Below, piece after piece: positions 4,608 to 24,183 of a stretch of DNA of 32,255 nt. Below the pieces are notes generated by a model. That model did no database searches and was not told the origin of the DNA. It saw only the letters and a program-made list of their open reading frames with translations. Within the stretch, counting starts at the first letter, position 1. Every line of letters begins with the position of its first letter. The DNA comes from Limisphaerales bacterium (GTDB taxonomy: Bacteria > Verrucomicrobiota > Verrucomicrobiia > Limisphaerales > UBA11358), in the NCBI GenBank assembly GCA_003161635.1, contig PMOA01000133.1, positions 175 through 32,429 on the forward strand. Direction: 5' to 3'. The position numbers were made by a program, and so were the translations under genes.

Positions 4608-5180
4608 CTAACTTTTTGACTGTGTAAAACCCAACAAACGACCCCTGTGAGGTATTGGGAAATCAACTCCGGAATCGAACGACAACAAGTCGCTCAACAG
4701 CTGCCATTGTTTCTCATCGGGTGTGCGGGTGCCACTCTCCCAAGCTAAAACCAGCGCCGTTTCAATCCCCATTTTACCCGCTAATTGATAGGGATGAAGC
4801 CCCTTTTCGTAGCGCTTGGCCTGAATGTAATCACCAGGCGTTTTTATGACAGTCGGGATGTGCTTTCGGCGGTTGCGATTCGGAGTAATGTGGGCGCGGG
4901 ATACGCGAATTTGCCGTTGTGCAAAAGCCAACAGGGCTATTAACTCTTGTGATGGCGAGCGCGAAGCCCGCCTGGTTCGAACTGTTCCGCTTCGCGCGTT
5001 CAAGGTAAACAGATTTGCATTTGCATCGAAATCCCGGACACAGCGGCCAAATAGATGCCGTCCCACAAATGGCAGCGTATCTGTGAAACAAGGGGAACAC
5101 TCATGAACTGGATGCTTCTTCAGGAGGTCCATTTCAGCAGGCTTATGGTCCGATCCAGCGGACTCGATAGTAACGTCCAT
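4608..5180 (-). CDS. XRE-like helix-turn-helix protein, possibly decayed at its 5' end
   Basis: Residues about 111-168 (nucleotides 4677-4850) form an XRE-type helix-turn-helix: IKTPGDYIQAKRYEKGL, then PYQLAGKMGIETALVLAWES, then GTRTPDEKQWQLLSDLL. This fits the 'R...gLsQ.eLA..lGvs...vs.WE.G...P' pattern of DNA-binding repressors. The first ~110 residues show no recognisable fold, and the frame's ATG at 5180 lies 38 nt inside the 3' end of the upstream same-strand gene. The real start is probably further in, or the gene is a remnant with its original 5' end lost. The neighbouring transposase fragment supports decay. The target is unknown. Confidence 0.5.
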   Translation of the reverse strand: MDVTIESAGSDHKPAEMDLLKKHPVHECSPCFTDTLPFVGRHLFGRCVRDFDANANLFTLNARSGTVRTRRASRSPSQELIALLAFAQRQIRVSRAHITPNRNRRKHIPTVIKTPGDYIQAKRYEKGLHPYQLAGKMGIETALVLAWESGTRTPDEKQWQLLSDLLSFDSGVDFPIPHRGRLLGFTQSKS

Positions 5181-7707
5181 TCAGGCCCGGCGGGCCGCCA
5201 GTGAGGGTGAAAGTGTCCACAAACATTAGTTTGCTTTCGACACCTGCAGGCACGTTGGTCTCGGTCATGGACAGTGCCTGGGTGAATGCGGTGGGTGAAG
5301 CGAGGCTGTTGGCGTACTCCACGGCATAGGTCTTTCCCCCGATCGAATTCCAGGAAATCTGCGGGTAGCCGGTGCCGGGCTGGCGGGCGGCCTGCACTTT
5401 GAAGGTGGAGTTTGGATCGCTCGGATTCAGGCCGAGCCAGTAGCATTGGAGGTTGCTGAATCCATTGGCTGCGATCGCTTGGGGCGATGCGTTGGTGGCG
5501 TTGCCGTAGTATCGGCTTTCCCACCAGTCGGGCAGGCCGTCGCCATCGGTGTCATTGGTGGCGTTCCAATAGTCAATCACAATGCCGGAGACGAGCAGTT
5601 TTTGGCCGGCCTGGCTGATGACGCCGGTCGCCGGGCACTGCGCCAGAACAACCGCGGCGTCCGACGGGATGGTGACGCTGACATTTCCGGTCACGTTGGT
5701 GGCGACGAAAACGCCGGCGACCGCATCATACAAGTGATTTGTGTTTGATCCGATATTGATGGTCACTTGTTCCGCAACGGCATAGGGGTTGTAGAGGAGG
5801 GAAGTCGGATTGGAGGGTGGCGGAAAGGCTTCCGTGACCAGACAGTCAACTTGCAATATGCCCGGCACGTTCGAGGTTTCAAACAACGCCGCCATCCAAC
5901 CGCTCCCCCAAGTGCCGTAGGGATTTAGATCCTGGATGGGAGGCGTGGCATCGCCCGTCGCGTAAGGCGTCGTGGTGCCGAGGTGGCGCACGCCTTCGTA
6001 GGAGATGCTTTGCACGCCGGTTTGTTGCACCCAGGCCGCGCTTGACTGCATGTTCGTAGGGAGGGTGTCCGGGTAAAAGAGGTTTGCGTTGGCAGCGACG
6101 TGCAACAGCCAGCGCCCCAGCAATCGCGCATACTGCGGCTGGTAACGAGCCACAGGGGCCATGATGCCGGCGGCGGCGTAGGAGTTCATCGAGAAGGCGT
6201 AGCCGCTCGAGTCAGTGGTGCTGCCCATGAGGCCGTAAGCGTCATAGTTTCCCCAGCGTGCGTTCTCGCAGCCCCAACCGGGTCGGGCATCGGAGGTGGA
6301 AGCAAAAATCCAATTGAGATGTTTAGTCGTGGAGTAGTTGCGACCCAACTCTGCGTTCATGCGAGCGGCCAGTGGCGGGCCGTAAAATCCCAACACCTCG
6401 TAGAACGGATTGGAAGTGCGGGTGTTCATCTGGGTCATGCAGGTGTCGGCGGCGGCGAGATAGTTCGTGTTGTGAAATTGCACGTAAGCCATGTATTCGA
6501 GCCACGCGATGCCGATGGCCATGTCCGGTTCATCCCAGGCGTAGTCCGTCGGCGTCATGGTCGTGAAATTGAAGCCGGTGTGCTCCCAATTATTGCTCAA
6601 CACCGGCAGCGCCGTGAGCCAACTGTCCGCAATGGCGGCCATCTTCGTTTGCAACGAAGCGCGACCCGGATAGCGCGAGCCGATTTCATAAAAGAGCGCG
6701 CTTGGGAAAATGTCATACCAGGCCGAGCCAGAGCCTTGCGAGTTGACGTTGTTAAAGACCAGGCCGTGGCCATTGACGACGCAATAGAATACCTCGCCTT
6801 GATGAACGCGGTCTGTACCGTTGAGCGAAGCCATGTTCAATCCCGCGAGCGTGCCGCCCAGCACCGCGCCGAGCGCGGTGAGCGCCTCCCCGCTATCGCG
6901 CGGGTTGCCGACGTAACTCGGCAGACCGAAGGCCGGCCCCGAATAACCCGCCGCGGTATTCGCGGTGTATTCGTAGAGCAGTGGCAGATATTGGCCAGTG
7001 ATCGATGGGTTGAACGCGAGCTGATGATAATCGCTGGCGGTTTGCTTCCAGTCGCGGATAACGATCGGATTTGGCAGCGGCGGAAAGTTCTCAATATACG
7101 GCACGAGCGAGTTGGTGAGAGTCACCGCGGCCAGGGAAATATCGTCCAACCATGCCTGGCCGGTGACGTCCGAACCACCGCCGGAGGTGAACGTGAGGCC
7201 CAGCTTCGCTGCGCTGGCCGGAGCGGTGAACTGCTGCATCATTTCCTCCCAGTCGTGCGTCCCGGCAAACGTATAGCTATAGCTTACCCCGGGGAGGTAG
7301 GCGTCGGCGGCATTGTAGAAGTTCACCGTCACGCGCATCGGCCCGATATTGATATTGATATTGGTGTAGCGAAGGTTGTAGCGGAGTTTGTAGTTCGTGC
7401 CGCCGGTGATGTTAAGGTGATCAGAATACCATTCGCCATAATCAGTGGTGCTGGTGTCGTTGAGTTGGAAGGAATGTGTGGGGCTGACTGACAGCGAGGT
7501 CGTCCAAAGGTCGATCGCTGCGCTGCTCCCGCCTTTGTGCCAGAAATCCGGCACCCCGTCGCTATTGGCGTCGGTTTCGAGAGTCGGGTTGGGCCAGAAG
7601 TTGCCGGGCAGGAGTCCCGCCTGGAGGAGCGCGGGCGCCAGGATCAGCGAAAGTATCGCTGTCAAAAGACAAAAGAACCGCCGGGGAACATGAAACGACC
7701 GGGACAT
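5143..7707 (-). CDS. Secreted putative six-hairpin glycosidase with N-terminal NFW/GEW module
   Basis: An 854-residue secreted protein. A signal peptide (residues 1-30) is followed by one NFW/GEW module (about 31-195; LLPGNFWPNPTLE, SVSPTHSF, YGEWYSD, GQAWLDDISL), probably carbohydrate-binding. Residues about 203-610 are an alpha-helical region reminiscent of (alpha/alpha)6 glycosidases or lyases, with HTGFNFTTM, GIAWLEYMAY, PFYEVLGFYGPPLAARMNAE and GYAFSMNSY. A beta domain (about 636-712), a DTDGDGLPDWWE calcium-type motif (719-730) and a ~95-residue C-terminal beta domain follow. It is a paralogue of the gene at 21929-24106, which lacks the module and the calcium motif. I cannot assign a CAZy family or catalytic residues. 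A GTG at 7725 could add six residues; I prefer the ATG at 7707. It follows a pilin-like gene on the same strand, with about 290 nt of apparently gene-free DNA between. Confidence 0.75.
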   Translation of the reverse strand: MSRSFHVPRRFFCLLTAILSLILAPALLQAGLLPGNFWPNPTLETDANSDGVPDFWHKGGSSAAIDLWTTSLSVSPTHSFQLNDTSTTDYGEWYSDHLNITGGTNYKLRYNLRYTNININIGPMRVTVNFYNAADAYLPGVSYSYTFAGTHDWEEMMQQFTAPASAAKLGLTFTSGGGSDVTGQAWLDDISLAAVTLTNSLVPYIENFPPLPNPIVIRDWKQTASDYHQLAFNPSITGQYLPLLYEYTANTAAGYSGPAFGLPSYVGNPRDSGEALTALGAVLGGTLAGLNMASLNGTDRVHQGEVFYCVVNGHGLVFNNVNSQGSGSAWYDIFPSALFYEIGSRYPGRASLQTKMAAIADSWLTALPVLSNNWEHTGFNFTTMTPTDYAWDEPDMAIGIAWLEYMAYVQFHNTNYLAAADTCMTQMNTRTSNPFYEVLGFYGPPLAARMNAELGRNYSTTKHLNWIFASTSDARPGWGCENARWGNYDAYGLMGSTTDSSGYAFSMNSYAAAGIMAPVARYQPQYARLLGRWLLHVAANANLFYPDTLPTNMQSSAAWVQQTGVQSISYEGVRHLGTTTPYATGDATPPIQDLNPYGTWGSGWMAALFETSNVPGILQVDCLVTEAFPPPSNPTSLLYNPYAVAEQVTINIGSNTNHLYDAVAGVFVATNVTGNVSVTIPSDAAVVLAQCPATGVISQAGQKLLVSGIVIDYWNATNDTDGDGLPDWWESRYYGNATNASPQAIAANGFSNLQCYWLGLNPSDPNSTFKVQAARQPGTGYPQISWNSIGGKTYAVEYANSLASPTAFTQALSMTETNVPAGVESKLMFVDTFTLTGGPPGLNGRYYRVRWIGP

Positions 7708-8000
7708 GGTTAAATTAAAAATCACAACATTAAATCATAACATACATTCGAGTTCACAGCCATGGCTCATTCCGCTAAAGCCGGGATTGGGATCGGCGTT
7801 CCCGCTGGCGTGACCATTCCCGCTTGCGCAGTGGCGGCGCCTCGTCCCGAAAAATGGCAGGATGCGCAAAATAAAAAAAGGATGTTTCATAATGCGACTA
7901 AGTGCCGGCCACGACATAATCGAGGTCTTCGCTCGCGCTGAATACAGCGGCTGCACAGATTGGGGCAGTTTACGGGAGTGGTTTGGCGGGCCGTCACTCG

Positions 8001-9235: not shown

Positions 9236-11767
9236 TTACTCCTGAACGACTCGGTAGAAGCCGGTGTTGCCAGCATGGATGACCGTGTCCGGATACGAAT
9301 TCGTGAGCGAGAGATCGCCCGCCACGCCGTTGATGAGCGATGTCCAGACCGTGGGCGAACTCAGTTTAGTGGCGAACTGCACCGTGTAGAACTTGCTGGG
9401 CATGCTGAGCCAAGTGATGGTGTTGGTGCCGCCAACGGCTGTTATACTCGTGATGACCGGAATGCTGATCCGCACGGACAGGTCGTCAATCACCATGGTC
9501 CCCGTCACGGTCTCGGGACCGCCGGAGGCAAATTTAACCGAGAGTTGCCCGGTGCCCGCGGGCACGACGAAGCGGCCCGTAACCCGCTCGAAGGGTGATG
9601 CGGCGACGCTGCCCAGCCAGCCTGGGCTTTGGCCACCCACCTCGAAATTGTATTCCGGCCCAAAACTAACGCCCCCGGCATCGCGGAATCCGAAGGTCAA
9701 ACGCATACTCCCGCTCGTCAGATCGTCGGTGTTCGTCGTGTTGTAGATTCGGAAGAATTGCACGTCGAGCACGTCGTTGGCCGCCACGCCGGACAGGGTC
9801 AGGTACTGATACCATTCGCCGTAAGTGGCGCCCAGGCCGCCGGAATTATCCACCAGGGAGAGCGAGTGGGTGGGGCTGACGGAGTTACTCGTGGTGACCT
9901 GATCCATCGTGATATCACTTCCGCCGCGCGTCCAACCCGCCGGAGACGCGGACGCAGGATCGTCCAACAGAGATCCCACCTCAAACGTCGGGTTCGGGAA
10001 AAAGTTCCCTGCCAGGATGGTCGGGGGCACTGCTGGCGCTGCTGAATTGAGGGCCACTGACAGGTCGTCAATGACCATTACCCCGGTGGGTTCTCCGGAG
10101 CCGCCGGAGACCAGGGAACAGCGCATCCTCACCGCGCCGATCGGCACTATTAACGACCCATTCCGCTTCGTAAACGTCGAATCCGCGATCGTGCTCACCC
10201 ATCCAGCGCTACTCGTGCCGGCGGTGACAAAGTGGGTTTCTCCGACGAGGGCGTCGGTGGCATTAAAGAACTGCGCGGTCAAGCGCATCTCATGTTGGAT
10301 ACCGGGACTGACGTTATACATTTCAAACCACTGGATATTCAACACCTGGCCGTTGGTGGCGTTGCCGATGAGGCTGACATCGGAGTACCACTCGCCGTAA
10401 CCGCTACTAACGTCTGAATTGTCATCTATGACGGCCAAGGAATGACTTGGACTGACAGAGTTGCTGGTCGTCACCTGATCGATAGTCGGGTCACCGCCGC
10501 CGCGAGTCCAATTTGCGGGGGTGCCATTGGTTTGGTCGAGGTCAGTGCCGAGCTCGAAAGTCGAGTTCACCCAGAAGTTACCTGGCAGCAGCATCGGCGT
10601 GCGCGCCACGGATAAGTCGTCAATGACCATTACACCGGTGATGCCTTGGTAACCGCCGGAGACCAGGGAACAGCGCATCGTCACCGCGCCGGGCGGCACC
10701 ACCAACGTCTCCTTCCGCTTCGTAAACGTCGAACTCGCGATGGTACCCGTCCATCCGGGGCTATTCGTCGTACCGATGGTGGTAAAGTCGGTTGTTCCGA
10801 CGACGACGCTGCTGGCGTTAAAGAACTGCACGGTCAAGCGCATAATGTTGGCCGGATTGAGAACGGCGGCGTTCATGTGATACATTTGAAACCACTGGAT
10901 ATCCAACATGTCGCCGGGATTGGCATTGCCGGTGAGGCTGACATCGGAATCCCACTCGCCGTAACCGGTAATCGTGTTGACGTTGTTATCAATGACGGCC
11001 AACGAATGACTTGAGCTTACGGAGTTATTCGTGGTCACCTGACAGATATTCGTGTCACCGCCGCCGCGAGTCCAATTTGTGGGAGTGCCGTTGGTCTGGT
11101 TGAGGCTGGTGCCGCTCTCGAAAGTCGAGTTCACCCAGAAATTGCCGGGCAGCAAGTTAACGCGGGCCACAGATAAATCATCAATGACCATCACCCCGGT
11201 GATGGCTGGGTCTCCGCCGGAGGCCAGGGCACAGCGCATCGTCACCGCGCCGACCGGCACCACCAACGTCGCATTCCGCTTCGTGAACGACGAATTCGCG
11301 ATGGTGCTCACCCATCCGGCGCTACTCGTGCCGGAGGTGGCAAAGTCGGTTTTTCCGACGACGTTGGTGGCGGCGTCAAAGAATTGCACGGTTAAGCGCA
11401 TCTCGGGGGCGCTGAGGTTATACATTTCAAACCACTGGATATTCAACACGTCGCCGTTGGTGGCATTGCCGATAAGGCTGACATCGGAGTGCCACTCGCC
11501 GTAACCGTTAATAGTGTCTGTATTGTTATCTATGACGGCCAACGAATGACTTGAACTGACAGAGTTGTTGTTGATCACCTCACAGATGGTGGTGTCACCG
11601 CCGTCACGAGTCCAGTTGTCGGGCGTGCCAGTCGGCAAGCCGAGGCCTGTGCCGGATTCGAAGGTTGGATTGATCCAGAAATTGTTGGGCAGCAAATCAG
11701 CGCGGGCTGAACCGGTCACTATTAACAGAAGCGTGGCTGCGCCAAGCACTGCGATTTTATGATTCAT
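9236..11767 (-). CDS. Secreted protein with four tandem NFW/GEW modules
   Basis: An 843-residue secreted protein with a signal peptide (about 1-23) and four tandem ~180-residue modules at about 25-203, 205-389, 393-573 and 584-767. Each has LLPGNFW-NPTFE-like, W-TRGG, NSVS-SHSLAVID, GYGEW-SDVSL, MRLTVQFF, a middle GW, VVP-GAV-MRC and GVMVIDDLSV. The first three are very alike at both protein and DNA level; the fourth is more diverged. The fold is most likely a beta-sandwich of the CBM4/9 type, so glycan or surface binding is a reasonable inference. The C-terminal ~75 residues (YTVQFATKL, GFYRVV) form the short beta domain often ending verrucomicrobial secreted proteins. No catalytic domain is visible, so it is likely a binding or structural surface protein. 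The start ATG at 11767 has only a weak ribosome binding site. One clear and one degenerate GTCRRCAG-type palindrome lie upstream. Confidence 0.8.
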   Translation of the reverse strand: MNHKIAVLGAATLLLIVTGSARADLLPNNFWINPTFESGTGLGLPTGTPDNWTRDGGDTTICEVINNNSVSSSHSLAVIDNNTDTINGYGEWHSDVSLIGNATNGDVLNIQWFEMYNLSAPEMRLTVQFFDAATNVVGKTDFATSGTSSAGWVSTIANSSFTKRNATLVVPVGAVTMRCALASGGDPAITGVMVIDDLSVARVNLLPGNFWVNSTFESGTSLNQTNGTPTNWTRGGGDTNICQVTTNNSVSSSHSLAVIDNNVNTITGYGEWDSDVSLTGNANPGDMLDIQWFQMYHMNAAVLNPANIMRLTVQFFNASSVVVGTTDFTTIGTTNSPGWTGTIASSTFTKRKETLVVPPGAVTMRCSLVSGGYQGITGVMVIDDLSVARTPMLLPGNFWVNSTFELGTDLDQTNGTPANWTRGGGDPTIDQVTTSNSVSPSHSLAVIDDNSDVSSGYGEWYSDVSLIGNATNGQVLNIQWFEMYNVSPGIQHEMRLTAQFFNATDALVGETHFVTAGTSSAGWVSTIADSTFTKRNGSLIVPIGAVRMRCSLVSGGSGEPTGVMVIDDLSVALNSAAPAVPPTILAGNFFPNPTFEVGSLLDDPASASPAGWTRGGSDITMDQVTTSNSVSPTHSLSLVDNSGGLGATYGEWYQYLTLSGVAANDVLDVQFFRIYNTTNTDDLTSGSMRLTFGFRDAGGVSFGPEYNFEVGGQSPGWLGSVAASPFERVTGRFVVPAGTGQLSVKFASGGPETVTGTMVIDDLSVRISIPVITSITAVGGTNTITWLSMPSKFYTVQFATKLSSPTVWTSLINGVAGDLSLTNSYPDTVIHAGNTGFYRVVQE
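9467..11695 (-). repeat. Four tandem coding repeats (NFW/GEW module array)
   Basis: Direct repeats of about 540-555 nt at 11159-11695, 10601-11155, 10049-10591 and 9467-10018. Adjacent copies share long near-identical DNA runs, for example around the GATGTCAGCCTC(A/C)- and GTCATTGACGAC-type blocks. This implies recent duplication or gene conversion and makes the array prone to unequal recombination. Confidence 0.85.
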
Positions 11768-12152: not shown

Positions 12153-12821
12153 TTAACGCGCGACCTGACGGCGACGAAGCAACCCACCTAATCCGACCAG
12201 TCCGCCCACGGAAAGCAGCGCGATGGTCGAGGGTTCCGGCACGACGTAGGCGGAGAGATCATCGATGATATATTGGCCGGTCCCGCTCGCCGGGCCGCCG
12301 GACGTCAATTGGATGCGCATCGTCACGGCGCCCGCAGGTACCACCAATGTTTGGTTCCGCACGTCGAAGGTAGAGTTTGCGAGGGTGCTGACCCAACCGG
12401 AGCTATTGCCTGACACGACGAAATTGTTGTCCCCCCCGTTGCCGAAGGCATCCAGGAAGCGCACGTCCACGCGCATCTCATTGTTGGTACCAATGTTGTA
12501 AATCTCAGACCATTGAAAGCCGATGGTGTCGCCAGGGCTGGCTACGCCCGTGAGGCTGACGTCAGAATACCATTCGCCGTAGCCCGTGGTGCTGTTGTCG
12601 ATCACGGCCAGCGAGTGCGTGGGGCTCACCGAGTTTAACGTCGTCACTTGATCGATGGTCCCGTCACTACCGCCGAGGTTCCAGTTGTCGGGCACGCCAG
12701 CCGTCAGGGATTCGAAGGTTGGATTGATCCAGAAATTGCCGGGAACGATAGCCGCTCGCAGCGAGGCGGGAACGAATAACAGAGAGATGCCTATGGAGAA
12801 TAGTACTAGTTTGGTTTTCAT
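12153..12821 (-). CDS. PEP-CTERM protein with one NFW/GEW module
   Basis: A 222-residue exported protein. A signal peptide (about 1-23) is followed by one module (about 25-195: IVPGNFWINPTFE, NSVSPTHSLAVID, TGYGEWYSDVSL, NEMRVDVRFLD, YIIDDLSAYV). It ends with a PEP-CTERM sorting signal: VPEPSTIALL, a hydrophobic helix and the basic tail RRRQ. In this system an exosortase recognises the PEP motif and fixes the protein to, or releases it at, the cell surface. No exosortase gene is in the window. The module is closest to those of the four-repeat protein, so this may be the single-unit, surface-anchored member of the set. GGAAG about 10 nt before the ATG at 12821 is a good ribosome binding site. 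The ligand is unknown. Confidence 0.85.
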   Translation of the reverse strand: MKTKLVLFSIGISLLFVPASLRAAIVPGNFWINPTFESLTAGVPDNWNLGGSDGTIDQVTTLNSVSPTHSLAVIDNSTTGYGEWYSDVSLTGVASPGDTIGFQWSEIYNIGTNNEMRVDVRFLDAFGNGGDNNFVVSGNSSGWVSTLANSTFDVRNQTLVVPAGAVTMRIQLTSGGPASGTGQYIIDDLSAYVVPEPSTIALLSVGGLVGLGGLLRRRQVAR

Positions 12822-13346: not shown

Positions 13347-13994
13347 TCAAGCCCCGAGGTATTTTGCCACCGCTTGCGCCCGGGAGCGGACGTGGAGCTT
13401 TTTAAAAACCCGCTCGATATAGGTATGAACGGTGCCATAGCTGATGCTCAACTGGTCAGCGATTTCCTTATACAGGTAGCCTTTGGCCAGATAATCGAGC
13501 ACCTCCTGTTCGCGCGCGGACAGATTCTCGGTCTCATGCGCGGTCGCGACAGGTTGTTTGAAAGTCTGCACCACTTTGCGCACGATATTGCTCGTCATCG
13601 GCGCGCCACCGGCGTAAACGTCCTTCACGGCTGCGAGCAATTGGACCGCGCTGACCGGCTTGAGCAGGTAGCCAGAGGCGCCGGCGGCCAGCGAATTAAA
13701 GATGGCGTCGGTATCATCATAGACCGTCAGCATCACCATCTGCATTTGTGGCAACAACCCGCTAAGCTTCTGAACGCATTCAACACCGTCAATGCCTGGC
13801 AGATTGATATCCATCAGGGCGACCTGCGGTTGCAGTCGTGGCAATTCACGCAAGGCTTCTTCGGCGTCGCCGAACGCACCAACACACAGCACACCCGAGC
13901 CTCGCTTCAAAATGCCCACCAAGCTGTGCCGCACCTGAGAATCATCTTCCACGATGGCGACGGTTATCGGATCATCCTTGGGAAGTGACATCAT
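13347..13994 (-). CDS. NarL/LuxR-type two-component response regulator
   Basis: A 215-residue regulator. The receiver domain (about 10-125) has the acidic pocket Glu16-Asp17-Asp18, phospho-acceptor Asp62 in LMDINLPGIDG, the switch Thr90 and Lys112 in LLKPVS. The C-terminal LuxR-type helix-turn-helix (about 156-213) reads LSAREQEVLDYLAKGYLYKE, IADQLSISYGTVHTYIERVF and KKLHVRSR, all expected for NarL/FixJ regulators that bind inverted half-sites as dimers. It lies 82 nt after the histidine kinase on the same strand and is its obvious partner. A GTCRRCAG-type palindrome in that gap centres 42 nt before its start, suggesting a separate, perhaps autoregulated promoter. The start is at one of two adjacent ATG codons (13994 or 13991). 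Confidence 0.93.
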   Translation of the reverse strand: MMSLPKDDPITVAIVEDDSQVRHSLVGILKRGSGVLCVGAFGDAEEALRELPRLQPQVALMDINLPGIDGVECVQKLSGLLPQMQMVMLTVYDDTDAIFNSLAAGASGYLLKPVSAVQLLAAVKDVYAGGAPMTSNIVRKVVQTFKQPVATAHETENLSAREQEVLDYLAKGYLYKEIADQLSISYGTVHTYIERVFKKLHVRSRAQAVAKYLGA

Positions 13995-14076: not shown

Positions 14077-15903
14077 TCACCGCCGTTTCAAAGGCAGCAC
14101 CAACCGCACGCTGGTGCCCAAACCAACCTCGCTCTGTTGCTCGAACGTCCCGCCGACATAGTTTAGACGGTCCCGCATGTTCTCCAGACCGTGCCCGGTC
14201 TTGACTGTGCCGACGGGTTCACGGAACCCCTTGCCATTGTCTTCGATTACGAGCACCAGCGCGCCTTCCTGGACTTTCAGGCGGAGCCAGACTTGGTCGG
14301 CATGGGCGTGCTTGACGACATTGTGCAAAGTTTCCTTTGCCGCCAGGAACAGATCGTGCCGCTCAGCGGAAGACATGGGGTATTCCGGCAGTGACTCCGG
14401 AACTTCCAGCCGGCAACGAATCCCAGCCACCCTCAGATAATCCTGCGCATACTTGCTCATGTAGCTGACGAACTGTTCAAGATTGTCGTTGGCGGGGGTG
14501 ATGGCCCACACGATTTCATTCAATTGACGCGCCACCGCACCGGCGGTGGTGAAGATTTGCCGCAGATGGGATCGGGCCTGTGCCGGTTGGTCCAAGTCAG
14601 TCTGCGCCAACTCGCTGAGCAGTGCTATTTGGGTGAGGTTGGCGCCCAGATCATCGTGAATATCCCGGGCGATGCGCGTGCGTTCAAGCTCGAAGGCGCG
14701 CTGTTGATCGAGGAGTTTTATCCGCAACCGCATTTTGCGCCAGCTCGCGTAACGCACAGCTGTCACCAGCGCGCCAACGACGAGCACAAGAACACTGCTC
14801 CGAAACCATGGCGTCTGCCAGAACGGCGGCACCACGGTGATCGGCAACGAAACTATCGCGCCCGTCCACTCGCCCGTCTCGGTTACGGCCTGGACGCGGA
14901 ACTGGTATTGGCCGGGCGGCAGGTACGAATAACCAGCCTCCCCCGGGCCACCCCAACCGATGCTGTACATCTCGTTCCATTGCAGGATAAGCGAGTCGTG
15001 CGGGTGAACGGCAACGGATGAATTTGGATCGGTGCGCCAGGACCCCCAAGTGGTTGGATCGGTGTCCTTAACTGCCAGGAAGTGCAGGGACGGGTAATCA
15101 TCAGAGCGGAGCAACAGGGCGGTGGCGGGTTTGGAACCGTCCCGCATCCAGCCGCGCGGAACGGCCAGCGGCTGGTCGAGGTCATGATTTCCACTCAAAT
15201 GTGAACTGAACAGCAACGTTTCTGGATTCCCGTTCGTTGCCGCCGCAACCGAAACGGTGAGGTCGTCAATAACCATTATTCCCACAGTCTGTTCTGATCC
15301 GCCTGAGAACAACTCAAGCTGCATCTTAACCGCCCGATCTGGTGCCTGCACCTCCTCCCGGCGGCGGTCAAATCGTGAACGGAATACACTGCCGTTCCAC
15401 CCCATGCTTTCGCCCTTCACCAGAAAATCCTGCGCGCTCACGGTGTTGGCAGCCGAGTCCAGGAACCGCACATTCAGCCGCATCTCACCGCCAGCTTCCC
15501 GCCACTCCTTGTCATATCCTTCCAGTTGATAGCGCAACCGCACTGCGGAGGTGGGCAAGGCCGTATTAGGCCCAAACCGAAATTCCAGGCGCACCGCTGA
15601 TGAAGGAATACGCAACCTGTCAGTTCCGGTGTTCTCACCCGGAGCGATTCCCCGTGGCGATTTGGAGGATGACAGCATTCGCTCAGAAATTTGCCGCGGC
15701 TGTCCGTCAACCAGCACCTTTTGAATGACGACGATTGTCGAAGAGGTACCATTGGTTGAAGCCTCAGCTGAAACTCCATTCGGCAGCCACCCAACCGCCA
15801 GCCATAAGGTGAACGCCAGCAGGGGGCGCGTCTTCAGCCTGCGCCGGATCGCCGATAGGGCCGAATCCTCGCAAACCAATTGCGGTTGCTGGGCCATAGT
15901 CAT
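14077..15903 (-). CDS. NarX/DesK-type sensor histidine kinase with a module inserted in its Y_Y_Y domain
   Basis: Residue numbers are from the ATG at 15903. A signal peptide or anchor ends near residue 47. The periplasmic part is a Y_Y_Y domain, split: its first half runs to YQLEGYDKEWREAGG (about 98-139) and its second half starts at YSYLPPGQYQFRV (about 325-360). Between them, residues about 140-324 are an NFW/GEW module in permuted order. A membrane helix (about 367-383) leads to a HisKA_3 domain with phospho-acceptor His416 (ARDIHDDLGANL) and an ATPase domain with N box (ETLHNVVKHAHA), DNGKGF (from 555) and GHGLENMRDR (from 570). It phosphorylates the downstream NarL-type regulator. The open frame extends to 16053, but the extra 50 residues look non-coding. 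It lacks the two-component beta-propeller repeats that usually precede Y_Y_Y in hybrid sensors. Confidence 0.9.
   Translation of the reverse strand: MTMAQQPQLVCEDSALSAIRRRLKTRPLLAFTLWLAVGWLPNGVSAEASTNGTSSTIVVIQKVLVDGQPRQISERMLSSSKSPRGIAPGENTGTDRLRIPSSAVRLEFRFGPNTALPTSAVRLRYQLEGYDKEWREAGGEMRLNVRFLDSAANTVSAQDFLVKGESMGWNGSVFRSRFDRRREEVQAPDRAVKMQLELFSGGSEQTVGIMVIDDLTVSVAAATNGNPETLLFSSHLSGNHDLDQPLAVPRGWMRDGSKPATALLLRSDDYPSLHFLAVKDTDPTTWGSWRTDPNSSVAVHPHDSLILQWNEMYSIGWGGPGEAGYSYLPPGQYQFRVQAVTETGEWTGAIVSLPITVVPPFWQTPWFRSSVLVLVVGALVTAVRYASWRKMRLRIKLLDQQRAFELERTRIARDIHDDLGANLTQIALLSELAQTDLDQPAQARSHLRQIFTTAGAVARQLNEIVWAITPANDNLEQFVSYMSKYAQDYLRVAGIRCRLEVPESLPEYPMSSAERHDLFLAAKETLHNVVKHAHADQVWLRLKVQEGALVLVIEDNGKGFREPVGTVKTGHGLENMRDRLNYVGGTFEQQSEVGLGTSVRLVLPLKRR
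14932..15486 (-). repeat. Permuted NFW/GEW module inside the histidine kinase gene
   Basis: This 555-nt segment encodes, in order, the C-terminal half of a module (EMRLNVRFLD, MGWNGSVF, GIMVIDDLTVSV) and then the N-terminal half (GWMRDGS, SLHFLAVKD, WGSWRTDPNS, SLILQWNEMYSIG). In the secreted proteins the order is the reverse. Its length equals one repeat unit, and both boundaries fall at the same phase of the unit, just after the EMY motif and just before EMRL. Confidence 0.75.
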
Positions 15904-16430: not shown

Positions 16431-17750
16431 TTAGACATCAGTCGCAATAATCCCGGGCTGAACGGCGGGCAAACGTCGAACCCCGGTCCCGACTTCGCCA
16501 TCCAGCGTGGTTGGCGGCACGGTGACGGCGCAGCCCTTGAGAATTGTTTTGGCCACGAACACCGAGAGAAGTTGTAGCACGGCGACGATGAGCAACGCGA
16601 AACGCAAGGCAAACGTGTTTGACACTAGAGTTGCCAGCAGGATGAACAACCCGCATCCGGCGAACCGCCCAATGTAGAATCCGAATTCCTGAACAAAGAT
16701 GTAGGCGTATTGATTGCGTTTCTCGAGCGCGGAGACGGTGTCGATTACTAACAGTTGAATCGTGAAATAAGCGATGTCGGCCAAGGGACGTCCCAGGACC
16801 AGAAGCACCATGAACAGCAGCACGCCGAGTTTGTTGAAGAGGATTCCATTCGCCAGTGCGCCCAAGGCGAACAACGACAGGCCGACGGCGAAGAGGTAAA
16901 TGCGGTGTTTCGGTTTGGTAGTCCGCCCGAGGATGTAGAGCAGGATGGCCGACAGGACACTGCCGACCGAAAGGATCGTGCCCAGCGAGCCTTCCTTGCC
17001 AACATGCGTCATAATCAGCATGGCCGGCGCCGTGACAATATAGCCCTGAGCCAACCCCTTGAGGATGGCGAGCAGTTGCATCCGGTTCCAAATCCAGTGA
17101 TAGCGGAAATACAGGAACTGGCTCCGGGAAGGATTCTTGAATTGACCTTGATGCACAATGACCGAAGCCGCGATGGTTATGACGAACACCACCGCCGTGA
17201 CCACCTGATACGCGCGGGAGACCTGGCCGGCAACTTCGCCGCCATACCAGCCAATGAATGCTCCCACCGCGAACGGCACCACAATGCCAACGTTGGTGGC
17301 GAAGAAAGTCTCCAGGCCGTAGTAATAGTTTCGGTTGCCGTCGCTCGTGCTAGACAGGGCCAGATAATCGCGGTTGGACCAATAAAGCCCGAAGGACATG
17401 CCCATCAGCAATCCGGCCACACCCAATCCCACCAGGCTCAACTCGTTCAAGGACATCATGACCACCATCGAAACCCCGCTGAGCAACATGCCGACGGAGT
17501 AAAGGCGCTTGACGCTCACGAGTTGCAGCAGCCAGCCGTTGACCAGAAAGGTGAAGGGTATTCCCGTGTAAACAGCCAACTGGTAGATGACGACCATTTT
17601 CACGTCGTTCGATTTCCGCATGACGTAGGCGCCGATGAACATCTCGATCACCGGCATCACCAGCCCATAGACCAGGTTGGTGATCAGGAGAACCCGCATG
17701 TCGCGCGGATACGAAAGGAAGTGCCGGTATTCGTGTAAAAACTTTTTCAT
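16431..17750 (-). CDS. MFS-type sugar/glycoside transporter
   Basis: A polytopic protein of about 439 residues with roughly twelve hydrophobic helices. It starts MKKFLHEYRHFLSYPRDMRV and shows a charged loop with GLYWSNRDYLAL near helices 4-5. Position after GH130 and glycosidase genes suggests import of the oligosaccharide released outside or passed to GH130; this is inferred from context, since MFS substrate cannot be read from sequence. The ATG at 17750 overlaps the stop of the preceding GH130 fragment as ATGA. This coupled start suggests that the ancestral neighbour was an intact GH130 gene ending exactly there. The frame could extend 19 codons upstream, but the overlap and a short N-terminal tail favour 17750. 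Confidence 0.8.
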   Translation of the reverse strand: MKKFLHEYRHFLSYPRDMRVLLITNLVYGLVMPVIEMFIGAYVMRKSNDVKMVVIYQLAVYTGIPFTFLVNGWLLQLVSVKRLYSVGMLLSGVSMVVMMSLNELSLVGLGVAGLLMGMSFGLYWSNRDYLALSSTSDGNRNYYYGLETFFATNVGIVVPFAVGAFIGWYGGEVAGQVSRAYQVVTAVVFVITIAASVIVHQGQFKNPSRSQFLYFRYHWIWNRMQLLAILKGLAQGYIVTAPAMLIMTHVGKEGSLGTILSVGSVLSAILLYILGRTTKPKHRIYLFAVGLSLFALGALANGILFNKLGVLLFMVLLVLGRPLADIAYFTIQLLVIDTVSALEKRNQYAYIFVQEFGFYIGRFAGCGLFILLATLVSNTFALRFALLIVAVLQLLSVFVAKTILKGCAVTVPPTTLDGEVGTGVRRLPAVQPGIIATDV

Positions 17751-18178
17751 GAAGCGGGTGAATGGAGGGTTTGGAGAATTTCCTGAATCGAGAATCGCGC
17801 CCCGCAAATGACGCTATCGGAGGCACCGTAGTAAAGAGTCGCGGTGTCACCGTGTATCAGGTGGCCGTTGGTAAACACGACGTTCCCGAAAAAACCGGTT
17901 TGTTCATAAGCAGCGACCGTTTCCATGATTGGCTCTGTTGATCGGGCAATTACTTTCCACGGCTCTTCCAGATCAAGCAATAGTGCGCCCAGACAATAAC
18001 GATGCTTCTCGTCGGCGCCATGGTAGATTTCCAGCCAGCCTGCCGGAGTTCGAATCGGGGCTGCGCCAGCACCGACGCGGGCGCTGTCCCACATGCCCGG
18101 TCGCGTCCGCGCGAGGCAGGCGTGCCTGCCCCAGTGCAACAGGTCGGGCGACTGCGCGAGCCAGATGTAGTTGCCGCC
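17747..18178 (-). pseudogene. GH130 3' fragment (truncated duplicate)
   Basis: Reading from about 18178 the frame gives GGNYIWLAQSPDLLHWG, then RPGMWDSARVGAGAAPIRTP, AGWLEIYHGADEKHRYCLGA and TLYYGASDSVICGARFSI. This is nearly the same as residues about 210-353 of the intact GH130 at 20856-21917, and DNA identity is also high. The catalytic Asp region and the N-terminal two-thirds are absent, and there is no convincing start codon or ribosome binding site. The frame continues upstream to the stop codon of the preceding glycosidase gene. Just before the homology, QIGG joins directly to NYIW. In the intact gene QIGG and the GGNY motif are 14 codons apart, so the fragment may also carry a deletion between the two GGCGGC motifs. 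Confidence 0.85.
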
Positions 18179-18238: not shown

Positions 18239-20779
18239 TTATTTCTTGTAATCGGGGTCCATATCAGGCGTTCGCAGGCCTGCCAGTTCTAACGCGGAAA
18301 GCACGAAAGCATTCCACGCAAATACGCGATGGCCGCCAAATTCCGGGTTCCCCGGAACGGTCGCCAGGTATTCCTGGCTGGTCGGGAAATCGGGAGCGGT
18401 GTTGATTTCGGCCCATAGGCGATTGGCGATGGCTTTGTCAGCCCGCTTCCAGCCGTGGAGTTTTCCAGCGACATACCCGCAAATTTCGATCTGCATCCAA
18501 CTGCCGCCGTTGTAGTACACCCCGTCTTTGCGATGGTCGCTATAGGACGAAGCGAAGTCATCGCTGCTCATCGGGTGGAATTTTTCGGTAAAGTATTTCC
18601 ACCCTGGAGATTGCTCCTGCATACCCATCAAGATCGGTCGAACGGTTCCGCCCTCTTCGGGATGCGGTGCCGCCGCATTGGGCAGCATCACCGGCATGCG
18701 GTCGAGCTGATTGCACATCATCTCATCGCTGAGGATTTTGTGGTTGAACAGCCACAGGGAGAGGAACTCCGGCCAAATCGCATCGAAGCTAATTGCGTTC
18801 GTCTCGCCCCGGACGGAAGTCATGCGATTGAGCGCCGGATCGTAATAGCTGCGGTAGGCGTCCTCGGCCTTGCGGATGTGCTCCTCGCTGATCGTCTCGC
18901 TGATGCCCGGAATCGCAAGCTCCTTGATGACCCGCAGCGTGACCGCCCACACGCCCTGGTTGTTGCAGATATCCTTTGTGCCTTTGGGGTAAGAAATCAC
19001 ATCATCTTGCCCCATGACGAATTCCGCCCAGCATACGCCGTCGCGATCTTTGTCGTAGGTGTTCAGGCAATACTCGGCGGCCTTGCGAATTTTGTCCATC
19101 GGCAGTTGCGTACCGAACCGCTGGCGGTTCTTGAGCGCCCACATCAGCCACTGCGGCGTGGAGTCGTTGCTCTTGCGCTCGCGCTGCCCCACGTTGGCCG
19201 GGATCAGCGTGCCGATAGAGCCGTCGTTGCCCTGATTATCGCCCCACGAGTTGAACAGTTCCTCGTTGAGCTCGCGATTGTGCAGCCCGCTCATCGAGTA
19301 GAAGCTGTCACGCAAGTACATCTCGCCGGCCGCCGAGTAGAAAATGCTCGGGGCGCACATCGCGCGGGCCACGTGCGGCTCAGCCTGCCAGCAGAGGCTC
19401 ATCGTGTCGGCCCAGACGATCTTCTCGGTCGGACCACCTCTAAAGTTCAAGGCGTCAGCGAAGTGCAACTGGCTGGCCAAACGGTACTCGCGAAGCGTGT
19501 CCTTCACACCGTTGTCCGCGAAGATGAAAACAGTCTTTTCCTGCGGCTGGCCCATTTCGAGGCGATGGTAGGGTTCAAGTTGCGATGGACGCTGCTCGAC
19601 CACGATGTTCCGCAGTTCGATTCTGACCGGCTGATCGTCCTGATTATAGCCCGGCCCGATCACCAGCGCCCCGCTGTTACCCTTGAGGCTAGGCACGTAC
19701 ACCTGACCCTCGAACTTCCGCCACTTGTCGGGCGACGCCGCCAGATTGTCCTCGAAAAGCCCCAAGTCGCCGCAAGTTGACTTGTCATCCTTCACATCCC
19801 AAAATCGCGTGCCGAGAGCGTGGGGCGAACGATACTCGAAACTCACGCGATAGGTATGAAGCGGCTCTACGGCCACTGGAATGACCATGCCGCTGAAATT
19901 CATCCGCCGATGCTGGCCGGTTATCACCATCTGTCCGTCGGGCTTCTGGATCGCCACATCGCCGCCAGTAGCCCACCACGACTCCGTCGGAGGCAAAGCG
20001 ACCAACTTGCCGCTCTGCGATTCCTCACCCTGAACGAGCAATTCGCCGAACGTCTGTTGAACATAGTATTGCCCGGCGGAACACTCCTCGCGGGTGGCCA
20101 CTTTGTAGAGGTTGACGTCTGGCGTTTCGCGAGTCGCCACCATTGTTGACGGACCGGCGACGCGATTGATGCGCTGAATAATCTGCGACCAGCCGTTGCG
20201 AAACCCCGCGTCCGTCAGTAACCCCACCGTCCACCCGTCCTTCGTCCGAAATCCCGCCGCCGGGAAGTACTCCCGCAGCGGCCCGCCTTGGCAGTCCGCC
20301 TGGTCGAAACTCCAGAGCTTTTGTGGAGGCTCGGTTGGCACGAGGCGATTGCTCACCTGGTAATACAAGAGGTACGCATCCGGCTGATAGAGCCGGATTT
20401 TCTTGCGAACGATTTGAGGACTCAGCACGTCGTACTGCACCTGAACGTCGATGACGGTCTCAAAGTCTCTGGACTGTATCTGGCCGCGAAGAATAACCTG
20501 CCGCTCGTCGCCCGTCCACGATGCTGCCCGCCAGTCGTCCTGCCGCAGTGTCAGGCTGCGGTCGCCGTTGGCAAAGATGGCTGAGAACTCCCCGCCACCG
20601 TTGTGCATCGCGATCGGTTTGCCGTTATTCAGGATCACCACACCATAGCCCTGTTTAGCGTCCCCCTGAACCTTGAGTGTCAGCCCGCCAGTGTCATCCG
20701 CCGCCCACACGGCAGAGCACGTCACCAGAATAAGTGCAGTCACCATCTCTCGCAGACAGTTCATTCGCCTGTTATTCAT
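18239..20779 (-). CDS. Secreted six-hairpin glycosidase-like protein
   Basis: An 846-residue exported protein: signal peptide to about residue 26 (VTCSAVWAA), an N-terminal beta-sandwich (about 30-265), an inserted jelly-roll-like stretch (about 270-405; WWATGGDVAIQKPDG, HTYRVSFEYRSP, KWRKFEGQVYVPSL, IELRNIVVEQRP), and an alpha-helical domain (about 430-835) of the six-hairpin glycosidase type. The helical domain has YLRDSFYSMSGLHN, WGDNQGNDGSIGTLIPANVG, TYDKDRDGVCWAEF, YNGGSWMQIEICGYVAGK and FAWNAFVLSALELAG. GH63/GH78/GH127-like families share this layout, but I cannot pick one. AGGAAAGGA ahead of the ATG at 20779 is a strong ribosome binding site. It sits between the intact GH130 and its fragment, so it may have entered an older GH130-MFS unit together with the duplication. 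It likely attacks an extracellular glycan. Confidence 0.75.
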   Translation of the reverse strand: MNNRRMNCLREMVTALILVTCSAVWAADDTGGLTLKVQGDAKQGYGVVILNNGKPIAMHNGGGEFSAIFANGDRSLTLRQDDWRAASWTGDERQVILRGQIQSRDFETVIDVQVQYDVLSPQIVRKKIRLYQPDAYLLYYQVSNRLVPTEPPQKLWSFDQADCQGGPLREYFPAAGFRTKDGWTVGLLTDAGFRNGWSQIIQRINRVAGPSTMVATRETPDVNLYKVATREECSAGQYYVQQTFGELLVQGEESQSGKLVALPPTESWWATGGDVAIQKPDGQMVITGQHRRMNFSGMVIPVAVEPLHTYRVSFEYRSPHALGTRFWDVKDDKSTCGDLGLFEDNLAASPDKWRKFEGQVYVPSLKGNSGALVIGPGYNQDDQPVRIELRNIVVEQRPSQLEPYHRLEMGQPQEKTVFIFADNGVKDTLREYRLASQLHFADALNFRGGPTEKIVWADTMSLCWQAEPHVARAMCAPSIFYSAAGEMYLRDSFYSMSGLHNRELNEELFNSWGDNQGNDGSIGTLIPANVGQRERKSNDSTPQWLMWALKNRQRFGTQLPMDKIRKAAEYCLNTYDKDRDGVCWAEFVMGQDDVISYPKGTKDICNNQGVWAVTLRVIKELAIPGISETISEEHIRKAEDAYRSYYDPALNRMTSVRGETNAISFDAIWPEFLSLWLFNHKILSDEMMCNQLDRMPVMLPNAAAPHPEEGGTVRPILMGMQEQSPGWKYFTEKFHPMSSDDFASSYSDHRKDGVYYNGGSWMQIEICGYVAGKLHGWKRADKAIANRLWAEINTAPDFPTSQEYLATVPGNPEFGGHRVFAWNAFVLSALELAGLRTPDMDPDYKK

Positions 20780-20855: not shown

Positions 20856-21917
20856 TCAGCATTGCCCACCGGTCTTTAGGGTCGAAAGAATTTCGACTAT
20901 GGAGAACCTCGCAGCGCAGATGACGCTGTCCGAGGCCCCATAGTAAATCGTCACCATATCCCCATCCACCAGATGTCCATTTGTGAACACCACATTGCCG
21001 AAGAAACCTTTTTGTTCGTAATCGGCAAGCGGTTCCATGATCGGCTCCGTTGAGCGGGCAATTACTTTCCACGGCTCTTCCAGATCGAGCAACAGTGCGC
21101 CCAGACAATAACGATGCTTCTCGTCAGCGCCATGATAAATCTCCAGCCAGCCTGCTGGCGTGCGAATGGGCGCCGCACCGGCGCCAATGCGAATACTGTC
21201 CCACATGCCCGGACGCGAGTGCGCGAGGCAGCGATGGTTGCCCCAATGTATCAGGTCAGGCGATTCCGCCAGCCACAGGTAATTGCCGCCAAGGGCCGGA
21301 CTGCTGGGACGATGGAGGGCGTAGTAGCGGCCGCCAATTTGCCCGTCAAAGATGGCGCAATCTTTGTTGTGCGGCGCGAAGATCATGCCATGTGAAGTGA
21401 TTCTCTTCCAATCGCTGGTGCTGCGCAAGCCCACGCCCACGCCGTGGGGGGATACTTCGGTGAAAGTCAGGTAGTAGGTGGAACCCAGTTGGGTCACGCG
21501 ACAATCTTCAATGCCATAGGCCTCCAGTTCGCCGCGGCCCACCAAAGGCTCGTGCCCGGGATCTTCCTTGAAGCGCACCCCGTCCTCGCTGGAGACGAGC
21601 CGCAGGTGCGAAAGCGTGGTCAGGTAATCAACGCCATCATAGCGCAGCACACGCGGATCGGAGAGGTCAAGCTTCGGATCAGAATTATCGAACTCCAAAA
21701 GTTTCAGTTCGCCGTTCTCGGCGAACATCGGCAACGTTGTCTTCCCCGACTTTTGTTCGGGCCGTTCCGCTACGCGCAACAGCAGCCAGCTCTTGCCTTG
21801 GAAACGGAATGCACCCGGGTTAAGCAGGCACTCCACCTTCATGCCGAATCTGCTCGGCCGGATCTCGGAGGGCCTGAGAATTGGATTTTCTGCGAAGCGC
21901 TTTGCGATGTCGGCCAT
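20856..21917 (-). CDS. GH130 family beta-mannoside phosphorylase or hydrolase
   Basis: A 353-residue, signal-peptide-free protein with the five-bladed beta-propeller motifs of GH130: CLLNPGAF (N33-P34-G35), YGIEDCRVT (136-142, with Asp138 as the likely proton donor, as in EDPR of characterised members), KDCAIFDGQIGGRYYALHRP (185-203), IGAGAAPIRTPAGWLEIYHG (244-263) and IYYGASDSVI (324-333). GH130 enzymes phosphorolyse or hydrolyse beta-1,2- or beta-1,4-mannosides in the cytoplasm, giving mannose-1-phosphate or mannose. Phosphorylase versus hydrolase and linkage cannot be fixed here. The upstream six-hairpin gene ends 11 nt before its ATG, and another secreted glycosidase follows after 76 nt, so all are likely one operon. 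A 3' copy of this gene lies at 17747-18178. Confidence 0.9.
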   Translation of the reverse strand: MADIAKRFAENPILRPSEIRPSRFGMKVECLLNPGAFRFQGKSWLLLRVAERPEQKSGKTTLPMFAENGELKLLEFDNSDPKLDLSDPRVLRYDGVDYLTTLSHLRLVSSEDGVRFKEDPGHEPLVGRGELEAYGIEDCRVTQLGSTYYLTFTEVSPHGVGVGLRSTSDWKRITSHGMIFAPHNKDCAIFDGQIGGRYYALHRPSSPALGGNYLWLAESPDLIHWGNHRCLAHSRPGMWDSIRIGAGAAPIRTPAGWLEIYHGADEKHRYCLGALLLDLEEPWKVIARSTEPIMEPLADYEQKGFFGNVVFTNGHLVDGDMVTIYYGASDSVICAARFSIVEILSTLKTGGQC

Positions 21918-21928
21918 GGCTGGGGTCG

Positions 21929-24106
21929 CTAGTTCCGGTAGTCCACGATGACGCCACCAATAAGGGTATGCGTTCCGTCGCGGGTTAGCTTCTCGTCCGC
22001 CGGGGCCAGGACCACCACTCTGGCGGTGTCGGGCGGAATGGTGATTCGCGCCTTGCCGGAGGTTTTGCGCAGCACGAAATCTTTGCTGACCACGTCGTAA
22101 ACGTCCTTCGGTTCCGGACCAACGTCGAGTTCCACTTGCTTGGACGTGGGGTAGGGATTGTAGTAAAGAAATGTTGGATAGGCCGGGCCGTGAAAGTAAT
22201 CCGTTTTCAGGAGATCCAGGCGGAGGATCTTCTCAATGTTCGTGGGTTTGAGGATCCCGCCGAGGTTGCCTACATGCGCGCTCCCGTAAAGACCCAGATC
22301 CGTCACGACTGACGCCGGCCGGTACAGCACGATGGGCACGGTGTAGCTCTTGACCAGATCAATGAAAGACACAATCAGGTCGCCTTGGGCGTAAGGACCG
22401 ATCTCCGAGCGGTAGGAAATGGCCATGGCGTCCACGCGCAGTTGATCGCAAGCGACCTGGCCTTTTGAACGATCCGTACTCTGCACCTTCACATAAAGCT
22501 TCCCGCCCAGGAACGCAGGGAGTTCCTTCACCAGAGGCGAACCGTCGCGCTTGAGGCTAAAGGCTTCCGTAAAGGGACCCTCCAGATTAGTCGCGTAGGA
22601 GAATCGAAAGGCATTGTCCCGGTGACCTTGGTCCACGCGCTCAGCAGCGACGACCAGGAAGCGCTCCGGACAATCAGGCAGATCGAATTCCCAGGTGTGC
22701 TCCAGACGGGCGCAGTCGCCATCGAGGGTCTCCTCCAATATTTCGACTTCCGGCGGCTCTTCCCGGTAATAGCGGGTGGAAATGAAACTGCCTTTCAAAA
22801 TTTTTCCGCCCGCGGTGCGGTAGTCGGCCCGGGCCGTGTTTGCATCGCTGCGCTTCCATTTGCGAAGACCTTCGTAGGCGATGACCGACTTGGGATCGTA
22901 GGCTGAGTCCCAAGCATAACTGGATTGGTGTTCGGCATCGAGCGCATTCGCGTAGAAAAGGCGCGCGGCGTTCGCCAGATTCAAAATCCATTTGCCGAGA
23001 TCATGGGCATATCGGGAGTCATAACGCGCCAATGGCGCAAGGGTTCCGGCATATTGAAACGTGTTCATCGCAAATGCATAGCCTCCACCATCGGTGGCAC
23101 TACCAACGAGGCCACCAACATCCAAGCCATTCCAGTTGCCGGTAATCACACCCCATTGGGGGCGAGCCTGCGGGCTGGGTCCGGGATCGAAACACCAGTT
23201 CACCAATTTACTCACATCATAGCTGCGGCCGAGTTCTGCGTTCATGCGGGCTGCGGTTATAGCCGCGTAGGGCAGCAGCACCTCGTAAAGCGGATTGGCT
23301 TCAATCGGTTTCTGCTCGAGGGCACGGATGGTCCAATCCGCCGCCGTCAGGAAACGCGGGTCTTTGGAGTTCTCCCATGCCATGTATTCCAGCCACGCGA
23401 TGCCTGCCGCTCCCTCGGGTTCGATGCGCTTGCCGTTGTCGAACGGCTTCATCGTGCGGAGATTAAATCCAGTATGATCAAAATTTGGCAACCGGGGCGG
23501 ATCCTGGCTCCCCCCCAAGACGACACAGGCCTGATACCAACGCTCCGCCACGCTCTGCCTGCGCCGCTCCTGCGCCGGGTCGCCCGGATAAAGTTCAGTC
23601 AACTGAAAGAAAAGCACATTTGGCAATACATCATACCAAAAGGAACCACCAGACTGACCGTTCGGCGAGTCGAGGAAAACGCCGTCGGCGGGATTGTAGA
23701 AGTTCGTCCCGATCGCCACCCAATCGTGGCCCCGATAGGTCCGCATGTCGAGGCCGACGAGCGACCCGCTTACGATGGCGGCGAGATAGTTGATGCTTTC
23801 CGGCCCATCCTTGTTACCGACGTAGGCGGGCATCCAGATCATGGTCTTGCTTTTGTTCTCCCAGCGCACCAGCGGCAGGTGCGGGCCCCGTTTCTCGAAA
23901 TCAAAGGCGAAGTCCAGGTAGTTCATCGTCACCTGCCACCAATCTCGCAAGGCAAAAGGCTGTGGATAATTTGGCATCTGTTCGACCCGTGAAATTGCGG
24001 CTGACGAAGCGCCCATCGCTTCAGCCGCGTAAGCCGCTGAGCCGCTGGAAGCTGTCGCTACAACAAACAATACGCATTGGAGAATCGAGGAAAGCGTAGA
24101 GTTCAT
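21929..24106 (-). CDS. Secreted putative six-hairpin glycosidase, paralogue of the gene at 5143-7707
   Basis: A 725-residue exported protein with a signal peptide (about 1-28). It shares most of its helical domain with the 5143-7707 protein: FALRDWWQVTMNYLDFAF, SFWYDVLPNVLFFQLTELYP, DHTGFNLRTMKPF, GAAGIAWLEYMAW, ANPLYEVLLPYAAITAARMN and GYAFAMNTFQYAGTLAPLAR. It then has its own beta-sandwich insertion (about 420-560; VEILEETLDGDCARLEHTWE, CDQLRVDAMAISY) and a C-terminal beta domain (YYNPYPTSKQVELDVG, ARITIPPDTARVVVLA). Unlike the paralogue it has no NFW/GEW module and no calcium motif. The open frame runs back to 24385, but that part lies inside the pilin gene. The ATG at 24106, with AGAGGGAAG upstream and a clear signal peptide, is the likely start. 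No CAZy family assigned. Confidence 0.78.
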   Translation of the reverse strand: MNSTLSSILQCVLFVVATASSGSAAYAAEAMGASSAAISRVEQMPNYPQPFALRDWWQVTMNYLDFAFDFEKRGPHLPLVRWENKSKTMIWMPAYVGNKDGPESINYLAAIVSGSLVGLDMRTYRGHDWVAIGTNFYNPADGVFLDSPNGQSGGSFWYDVLPNVLFFQLTELYPGDPAQERRRQSVAERWYQACVVLGGSQDPPRLPNFDHTGFNLRTMKPFDNGKRIEPEGAAGIAWLEYMAWENSKDPRFLTAADWTIRALEQKPIEANPLYEVLLPYAAITAARMNAELGRSYDVSKLVNWCFDPGPSPQARPQWGVITGNWNGLDVGGLVGSATDGGGYAFAMNTFQYAGTLAPLARYDSRYAHDLGKWILNLANAARLFYANALDAEHQSSYAWDSAYDPKSVIAYEGLRKWKRSDANTARADYRTAGGKILKGSFISTRYYREEPPEVEILEETLDGDCARLEHTWEFDLPDCPERFLVVAAERVDQGHRDNAFRFSYATNLEGPFTEAFSLKRDGSPLVKELPAFLGGKLYVKVQSTDRSKGQVACDQLRVDAMAISYRSEIGPYAQGDLIVSFIDLVKSYTVPIVLYRPASVVTDLGLYGSAHVGNLGGILKPTNIEKILRLDLLKTDYFHGPAYPTFLYYNPYPTSKQVELDVGPEPKDVYDVVSKDFVLRKTSGKARITIPPDTARVVVLAPADEKLTRDGTHTLIGGVIVDYRN

Positions 24107-24183
24107 AGTTATCAAAGCTTCCCTCTCGGTGCGTTGGAGGCCTGGAACCGGTTGCCGGGGAATCCGCATCGTCGTTCTTTCGT

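Follow-up and report, generated by a model that had tools for sequence, protein, structure and literature searches.

The window analysed here is a 32,255-nucleotide stretch of a Limisphaerales genome (contig PMOA01000133.1), and its histidine kinase gene P0001 carries a second domain inside its periplasmic Y_Y_Y sensor domain (Table 1). The true start of P0001 is probably internal, near residue 51; the start, the signal, and the membrane helix were judged by eye. HisKA_3 (48.4 bits) and HATPase_c (43.4 bits) both exceed their Pfam cut-offs, so P0001 is a NarL/HisKA_3-type sensor kinase. No propeller or receiver family was found in P0001 in Pfam at E values up to 1, and the regulator is encoded by a separate gene; P0001 is therefore not a hybrid two-component system (HTCS). 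Its cytoplasmic part is HisKA_3/HATPase_c with no anti-sigma domain, which sets it apart from RsgI-type biosensors built on carbohydrate-binding modules (CBMs). NCBIfam has no model that names the inserted module or the kinase specifically.

Table 1. Kinase P0001, its parts, and the neighbouring genes in the window
Feature	Coordinates	Strand	Basis or remark
Histidine kinase P0001	14077..16053	-	658-aa open reading frame (ORF); signal/anchor, insert-bearing Y_Y_Y, transmembrane helix, HisKA_3, HATPase_c
Periplasmic region, N-terminal part, with first Y_Y_Y part up to LEGYDKEWREAGG	15487..15765	-	
Insert, circularly permuted CBM-like module (B-linker-A)	14947..15486	-	About 180 residues
Half B (EMRL...IDDLTV), C-terminal half of the secreted module	15247..15486	-	Edge approximate
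Half A (LLFSSHLSG...WMRDG...LQWNEMYSIG), N-terminal half of the secreted module	14947..15216	-	Edge approximate
Second Y_Y_Y part, YSYLPPGQYQFRVQAV...	14818..14946	-	Pfam match, insert-less relatives, edge table
Response regulator, receiver and LuxR-type GerE, downstream partner	13347..13994	-	Pfam
Secreted protein, one linear module (A-B) and PEP-CTERM motif	12153..12821	-	
Secreted four-repeat array, linear modules (A-B)x4	9236..11767	-	
Large secreted protein, one N-terminal linear module	5143..7725	-	Homologues in 6 of the 13 array loci read

The Y_Y_Y domain (PF07495) scores 40.2 bits against a curated cut-off of 26.6. The Pfam match is split over two stretches, the better of which covers P0001 residues 369 to 407 (profile positions 28 to 64 of 65). 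The domain breaks off after LEGYDKEWREAGG and picks up again at AGYSYLPPGQYQF, and the Y_Y_Y fold closes across the insert. Insert-less relatives run through this site uninterrupted, which bears out the interruption proposed in an initial annotation of the window. That annotation had also proposed searching related genomes for kinases with and without the insert, and we found both. The insert-less sisters include four paralogues in the same genome (L226 to L229), one of which, L226, has a continuous Y_Y_Y that reads LEGHETAWTEAGDTRVAYYNKLPPGNYRF. The insert starts at P0001 residue 190 (EMRLN; window position 15486) and ends at about residue 369 (MYSIGWGG; 14947). It had been placed at 14932..15486; the overall place and the 15486 edge hold, but 14932 overshoots the insert by five residues of the Y_Y_Y tail.

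The insert is related to a module that its neighbours secrete, with the two halves exchanged. In the secreted proteins, half A (NFW...GEW...EMYN) precedes half B (EMRL...IDDLSV). The insert aligned co-linearly with the four-repeat array across the repeat junctions (E = 1.2e-23, 4.6e-22, and 1.6e-16). In an own-genome search, the linear single-module protein matched the kinase in two pieces, second half first (E = 3.0e-12 and 1.4e-5). A linear model of the six window modules matched kinases of many genomes in the same way, at model positions of about 100 to 183 and then about 12 to 98, with only the first piece above threshold in some kinases. When this linear model was rotated, the score climbed smoothly to a maximum at the EMYN|EMRL cut. 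The mean best-domain score over 54 distinct kinases was 72.3 bits at that cut versus 44.3 bits unrotated, and the window kinase rose from 68.4 to 109.2 bits. An hhalign comparison of the linear profile A5 with the profile A1, which was built in B-A order and includes three array rows, aligned half B alone.

Sorting with half models gave the B-A order in 54 ORFs with a kinase motif and in 5 further ORFs, which belong to kinases that are truncated at a contig end, are broken, or escaped the motif. Another 36 ORFs with at least two halves alternate A-B, many of them overlapping copies of window genes. Two of these begin with B: L157, whose first module is split by a stop, and L159, which is truncated at the end of its contig. 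The L157 array is broken into L157:6959-9619 and L157:9623-10099, and the stop leaves one half A in a separate ORF. This lone ORF and L203, with its halves on two ORFs, lie outside the count. The linker from B to A has a median of 9 residues both in the 59 kinases and at 43 array junctions, and the median span is 178 residues for the kinase insert versus 181 for an array repeat read out of phase. The table of insert edges omits two of the 59 kinases, which have short flanks. The match of the insert to one out-of-phase array repeat is far beyond chance, and it upholds the proposal that the insert is one repeat unit long and is cut out of phase.

These results support the view that the insert is one module, circularly permuted, cut in the EMYN/EMRL hairpin and lodged inside Y_Y_Y. 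The initial annotation had named one outcome that would speak against it, an ordinary domain family without permutation, whose likeness to the secreted module would be no more than a resemblance. Such a family would fit the kinase arrangement, which is itself widespread and constant. However, the rotation scan and the swapped-piece matches argue for permutation, and the canonical order belongs to the secreted form. We therefore reject the unpermuted reading, which we regard as very improbable.

The secreted linear module has the fold and strand order of a CBM4/CBM16-like jelly roll, and its A-B order is the canonical CBM order. The predicted model shares about 6 to 15% identity with CBM4, CBM16, and CBM61 chains in the PDB. 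Many of the nearest folds are glycan-binding domains, but not all. Just one of 38 modules matches CBM_4_9 (PF02018), and not at the cut-off (best E = 0.0028), and the three module proteins of the window have no CBM_4_9 match in Pfam. Profile searches of PDB sequences returned nothing with the module and chance-level aminotransferases alone with the insert (E = 0.036). For structure prediction, the alignment included nine Y_Y_Y rows from a whole-kinase search of genome contigs, which listed 80 loci, mostly from Bacteroidetes and some from others. Foldseek with the kinase model found nothing at E values up to 0.001. The best structural match of the insert region was 1ajk, ranked after four Bacteroides sensor ectodomains that match Y_Y_Y. 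This match to a jelly roll with relocated ends would indirectly support a superposition of the two forms with swapped halves.

To place the insert relative to the secreted modules, we built an unrooted tree of 122 rows. One branch (99/97) places 59 kinase inserts on one side and 63 secreted modules on the other; the closest group of the window insert consists of the inserts of the kinases of two other genomes, G151 and G114. The initial annotation had derived the insert from the four-repeat gene 3 kb away. The insert and array do share the same module, the length of one unit, and a matching linker length, and kinase and array are kept together in three genomes. However, the window insert is 76% identical to the G151 insert versus 34 to 35% to its own array. 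A clade of the window insert with the four array repeats was rejected (log-likelihood 261 lower, p-AU = 5e-64), in a test that is strict because it forces all four repeats together. The arrangement is also present elsewhere in the phylum, beyond the order and the class of the window genome. Recent excision from the local array is thus refuted by the tree and the clade test, and we consider it exceedingly unlikely. The linear secreted modules are cousins of the kinase insert and not its recent source. In a distant ancestor, one out-of-phase unit may nevertheless have been excised from some tandem array, as the matching linker lengths would allow.

A single, ancient origin of the permuted insert is most likely, and horizontal spread is possible beside vertical descent. 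In trees of the kinase cores, a single insert-bearing clade was not rejected in two tests (p = 0.72 and 0.41). L203 was excluded from all core trees, and the later ones also exclude L145 (a broken ORF, not an insert-less kinase), L262, and L268, and then L230 to L233 as well. However, the first quick core tree needed five changes, and just 53% of the later core-tree bootstraps need a single one. The insert is under constraint. Its dN/dS is 0.16 versus both G151 and G114, compared with 0.22 and 0.16, respectively, for the catalytic part, and its conservation is 75/58%, versus 55/44% for the N-terminal and 78/58% for the C-terminal Y_Y_Y flank.

The arrangement is widely distributed. The kinase-insert profile matched 50 of 320 genomes of the order and 12 of 387 genomes drawn from the phylum, and a 38-row linear profile matched 35 of 384 genomes of the class. 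The window genome is counted each time, the three samples overlap, and many matches of the order and class searches were classed as kinase or array by ORF length and match order. In the phylum sample, the 21 matches outside the window genome were all read and all lie in kinases, one of them broken over two ORFs. Because A1, built in the B-A order, could favour permuted kinases, linear profiles were also searched (A4 on the 387 phylum genomes and A5 on the 384 class genomes). Near full-length linear matches outside the order were found only in G828 (a 327-aa ORF) and G889 (a 645-aa sulfatase-like ORF), neither of which is a kinase. In G828, from another family of the class, the stand-alone linear module (L302:9545-10525) adjoins a GHy homologue. 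The G889 protein, judged a sulfatase by eye, ends in a divergent linear module. Eight kinase loci (L175 to L179, L182, L183, and L186) have an extra N-terminal region, LamG-like by eye, before the interrupted Y_Y_Y.

This distribution bears on the direction of the change. The permuted kinase insert could be the older form in this lineage, and the arrays could have been derived from it when it was duplicated in tandem and its cut was moved to the canonical CBM ends. The phylum-sample matches outside the window genome, all permuted kinases, are in line with this, and the insert tree is unrooted. When the distant L302 was added to a quick, free insert tree, its long branch fell on the kinase side, with two changes, but a tree that keeps the kinases together was better (log-likelihood 44.6 higher, p = 0.93), so any placement of L302 is tentative. 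Against a kinase-first origin, the linear order is the canonical CBM order, linear modules occur in other taxa (beside the GHy homologue in G828 and at the end of the G889 protein), and two extra cuts would be required. We regard a kinase-first origin as distinctly unlikely.

The surroundings of the kinase suggest a glycan-related role. Of the 59 insert-bearing kinases, 54 are immediately followed, on the same strand, by a homologue of the response regulator; among the other five, three loci lack the room to tell, and two have a regulator nearby on the opposite strand. The window kinase is located in a glycan-type cassette. The G151 locus has kinase, regulator, array, and module protein together, and the G114 locus has array, GHy, GH130, MFS, module protein, kinase, and regulator. 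The GH130 gene reaches the Pfam cut-off for GH130 (163 bits). Its nearest NCBIfam models are mannobiose phosphorylases, below their cut-offs (NF050092, 410 of 550 bits; NF052550, 198 of 450 bits). Array ORFs are also present in a further 13 genomes of the order; one of these ORFs is truncated at a contig end and another is broken.

Several further features of the cassette were recorded. GH130 is present twice, as a 3' fragment at 17747-18139 and as a whole gene at 20856-21917. Between the copies lies an 846-aa protein (18239-20779) with a weak CBM_4_9 match (E = 0.0032). The stretch 16517-18178, which holds the MFS gene and the 3' fragment of the second GH130, is 88 to 90% identical in DNA to L150 and L151, loci in other families of the order. 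This looks like recent horizontal recombination, because the other shared stretches are about 66 to 77% identical, one 61-bp stretch apart. The two similar large secreted proteins at 5143-7725 and 21929-24385 are kept in cassettes of other genomes. Neither has a significant Pfam or NCBIfam match, and they are candidates for putative new glycan-active enzymes.

The initial annotation had further suggested that the kinase senses through the module that its neighbours secrete. This is plausible at the window locus. However, an insert-bearing kinase lies near the array on the same contig in only 3 of the 14 genomes in which an array was observed (window included), several of the other array contigs being short, and seven wide kinase loci without arrays have no other module gene. 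These seven loci also fit an alternative in which the permuted CBM fold binds no glycan but takes part in dimer contacts or recognizes the secreted module proteins. Contacts between proteins are often made by jelly rolls, and the insert exceeds the N-terminal Y_Y_Y flank in conservation and roughly equals the C-terminal one. GH130 and other putative glycan genes at the locus, and the many glycan-binding domains among the nearest folds (though not all bind glycan), speak for glycan binding instead. We consider a non-glycan role rather unlikely.

P0001 thus probably belongs to a family of HisKA_3-type sensor kinases in which one hairpin loop of the periplasmic Y_Y_Y carries a CBM4/CBM16-like jelly roll in circularly permuted form. 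The data demonstrate that the insert and the secreted module are homologous and permuted relative to each other, that the insertion site is fixed, that the arrangement is widespread, that the insert is under constraint, and that the kinase is paired with a LuxR-type regulator. Because the swap is ancient and common to many related bacteria, it marks a family of probable polysaccharide sensors rather than a recent accident in one genome. Through the swap, the module no longer ends at the usual CBM termini but at the tips of the neighbouring strands EMYS and EMRL. Therefore, the module hangs as an extension of the Y_Y_Y hairpin and not as a bead on a linker. We suggest that a glycan bound by the module would shift the hairpin and that this shift may alter how the Y_Y_Y dimer is packed, as in the model reportedly called "scissor blade-like" for BT4663. 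The altered packing would switch the kinase on, and the regulator would then control nearby glycan-use genes. This proposal draws on the geometry of the joint and on the use of Y_Y_Y in BT4663, which PMC8534201 lists. In a fuller scenario, which we offer tentatively as a possibility, an out-of-phase CBM-array unit was set into the Y_Y_Y hairpin before several classes of the phylum diverged. Through the hairpin-to-hairpin joint, binding of a glycan would act mechanically on the sensor, and a family of kinases that sense polysaccharides directly would have been founded. At the window locus, the kinase and the secreted proteins would recognize one glycan, the kinase with the permuted version of the module and the secreted proteins with the linear version.

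Searches of open-licence PMC papers for circular permutation, domain insertion, or kinases in combination with Y_Y_Y or CBMs turned up no report of the arrangement, with most hits judged by their listing entries. To our knowledge, natural circular permutation and domain insertion have seldom been caught with the linear tandem form in the same locus. Because the two forms, a constant cut point, and sister kinases without the insert can all be compared, the need to re-cut a module for use as an inserted sensor is directly testable. The family also provides a way to recognize periplasmic polysaccharide sensors of the phylum by sequence. Among known systems, the Y_Y_Y hybrid two-component sensors (BT4663, 4a2l/4a2m) differ in that neither a beta-propeller nor a fused regulator was found in P0001, and in that the Y_Y_Y of P0001 is interrupted by a second domain. 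CBMs act as extracytoplasmic polysaccharide sensors in the RsgI anti-sigma factors of Clostridium thermocellum, and in RsgI6 a GH10 domain like that of a secreted enzyme serves as the sensor (excerpts of PMC4711584). However, the RsgI module is C-terminal, the output is an anti-sigma factor and not a kinase, and those excerpts mention no permutation. In the Pm25/Xyn10C GH10 xylanases, CBM4-type domains are inserted in a loop of another domain and conserved family-wide, but the host is an enzyme, and "permut" is absent from the main text (PMC7848910, in part). The engineered, circularly permuted beta-glucanase 1ajk is likewise a jelly roll with relocated ends, but it is a laboratory construct, a glucanase, and has no host domain. 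Finally, the CBM4, CBM16, and CBM61 modules of the PDB share their fold and strand order with the linear secreted module, whereas the kinase insert has the halves swapped.
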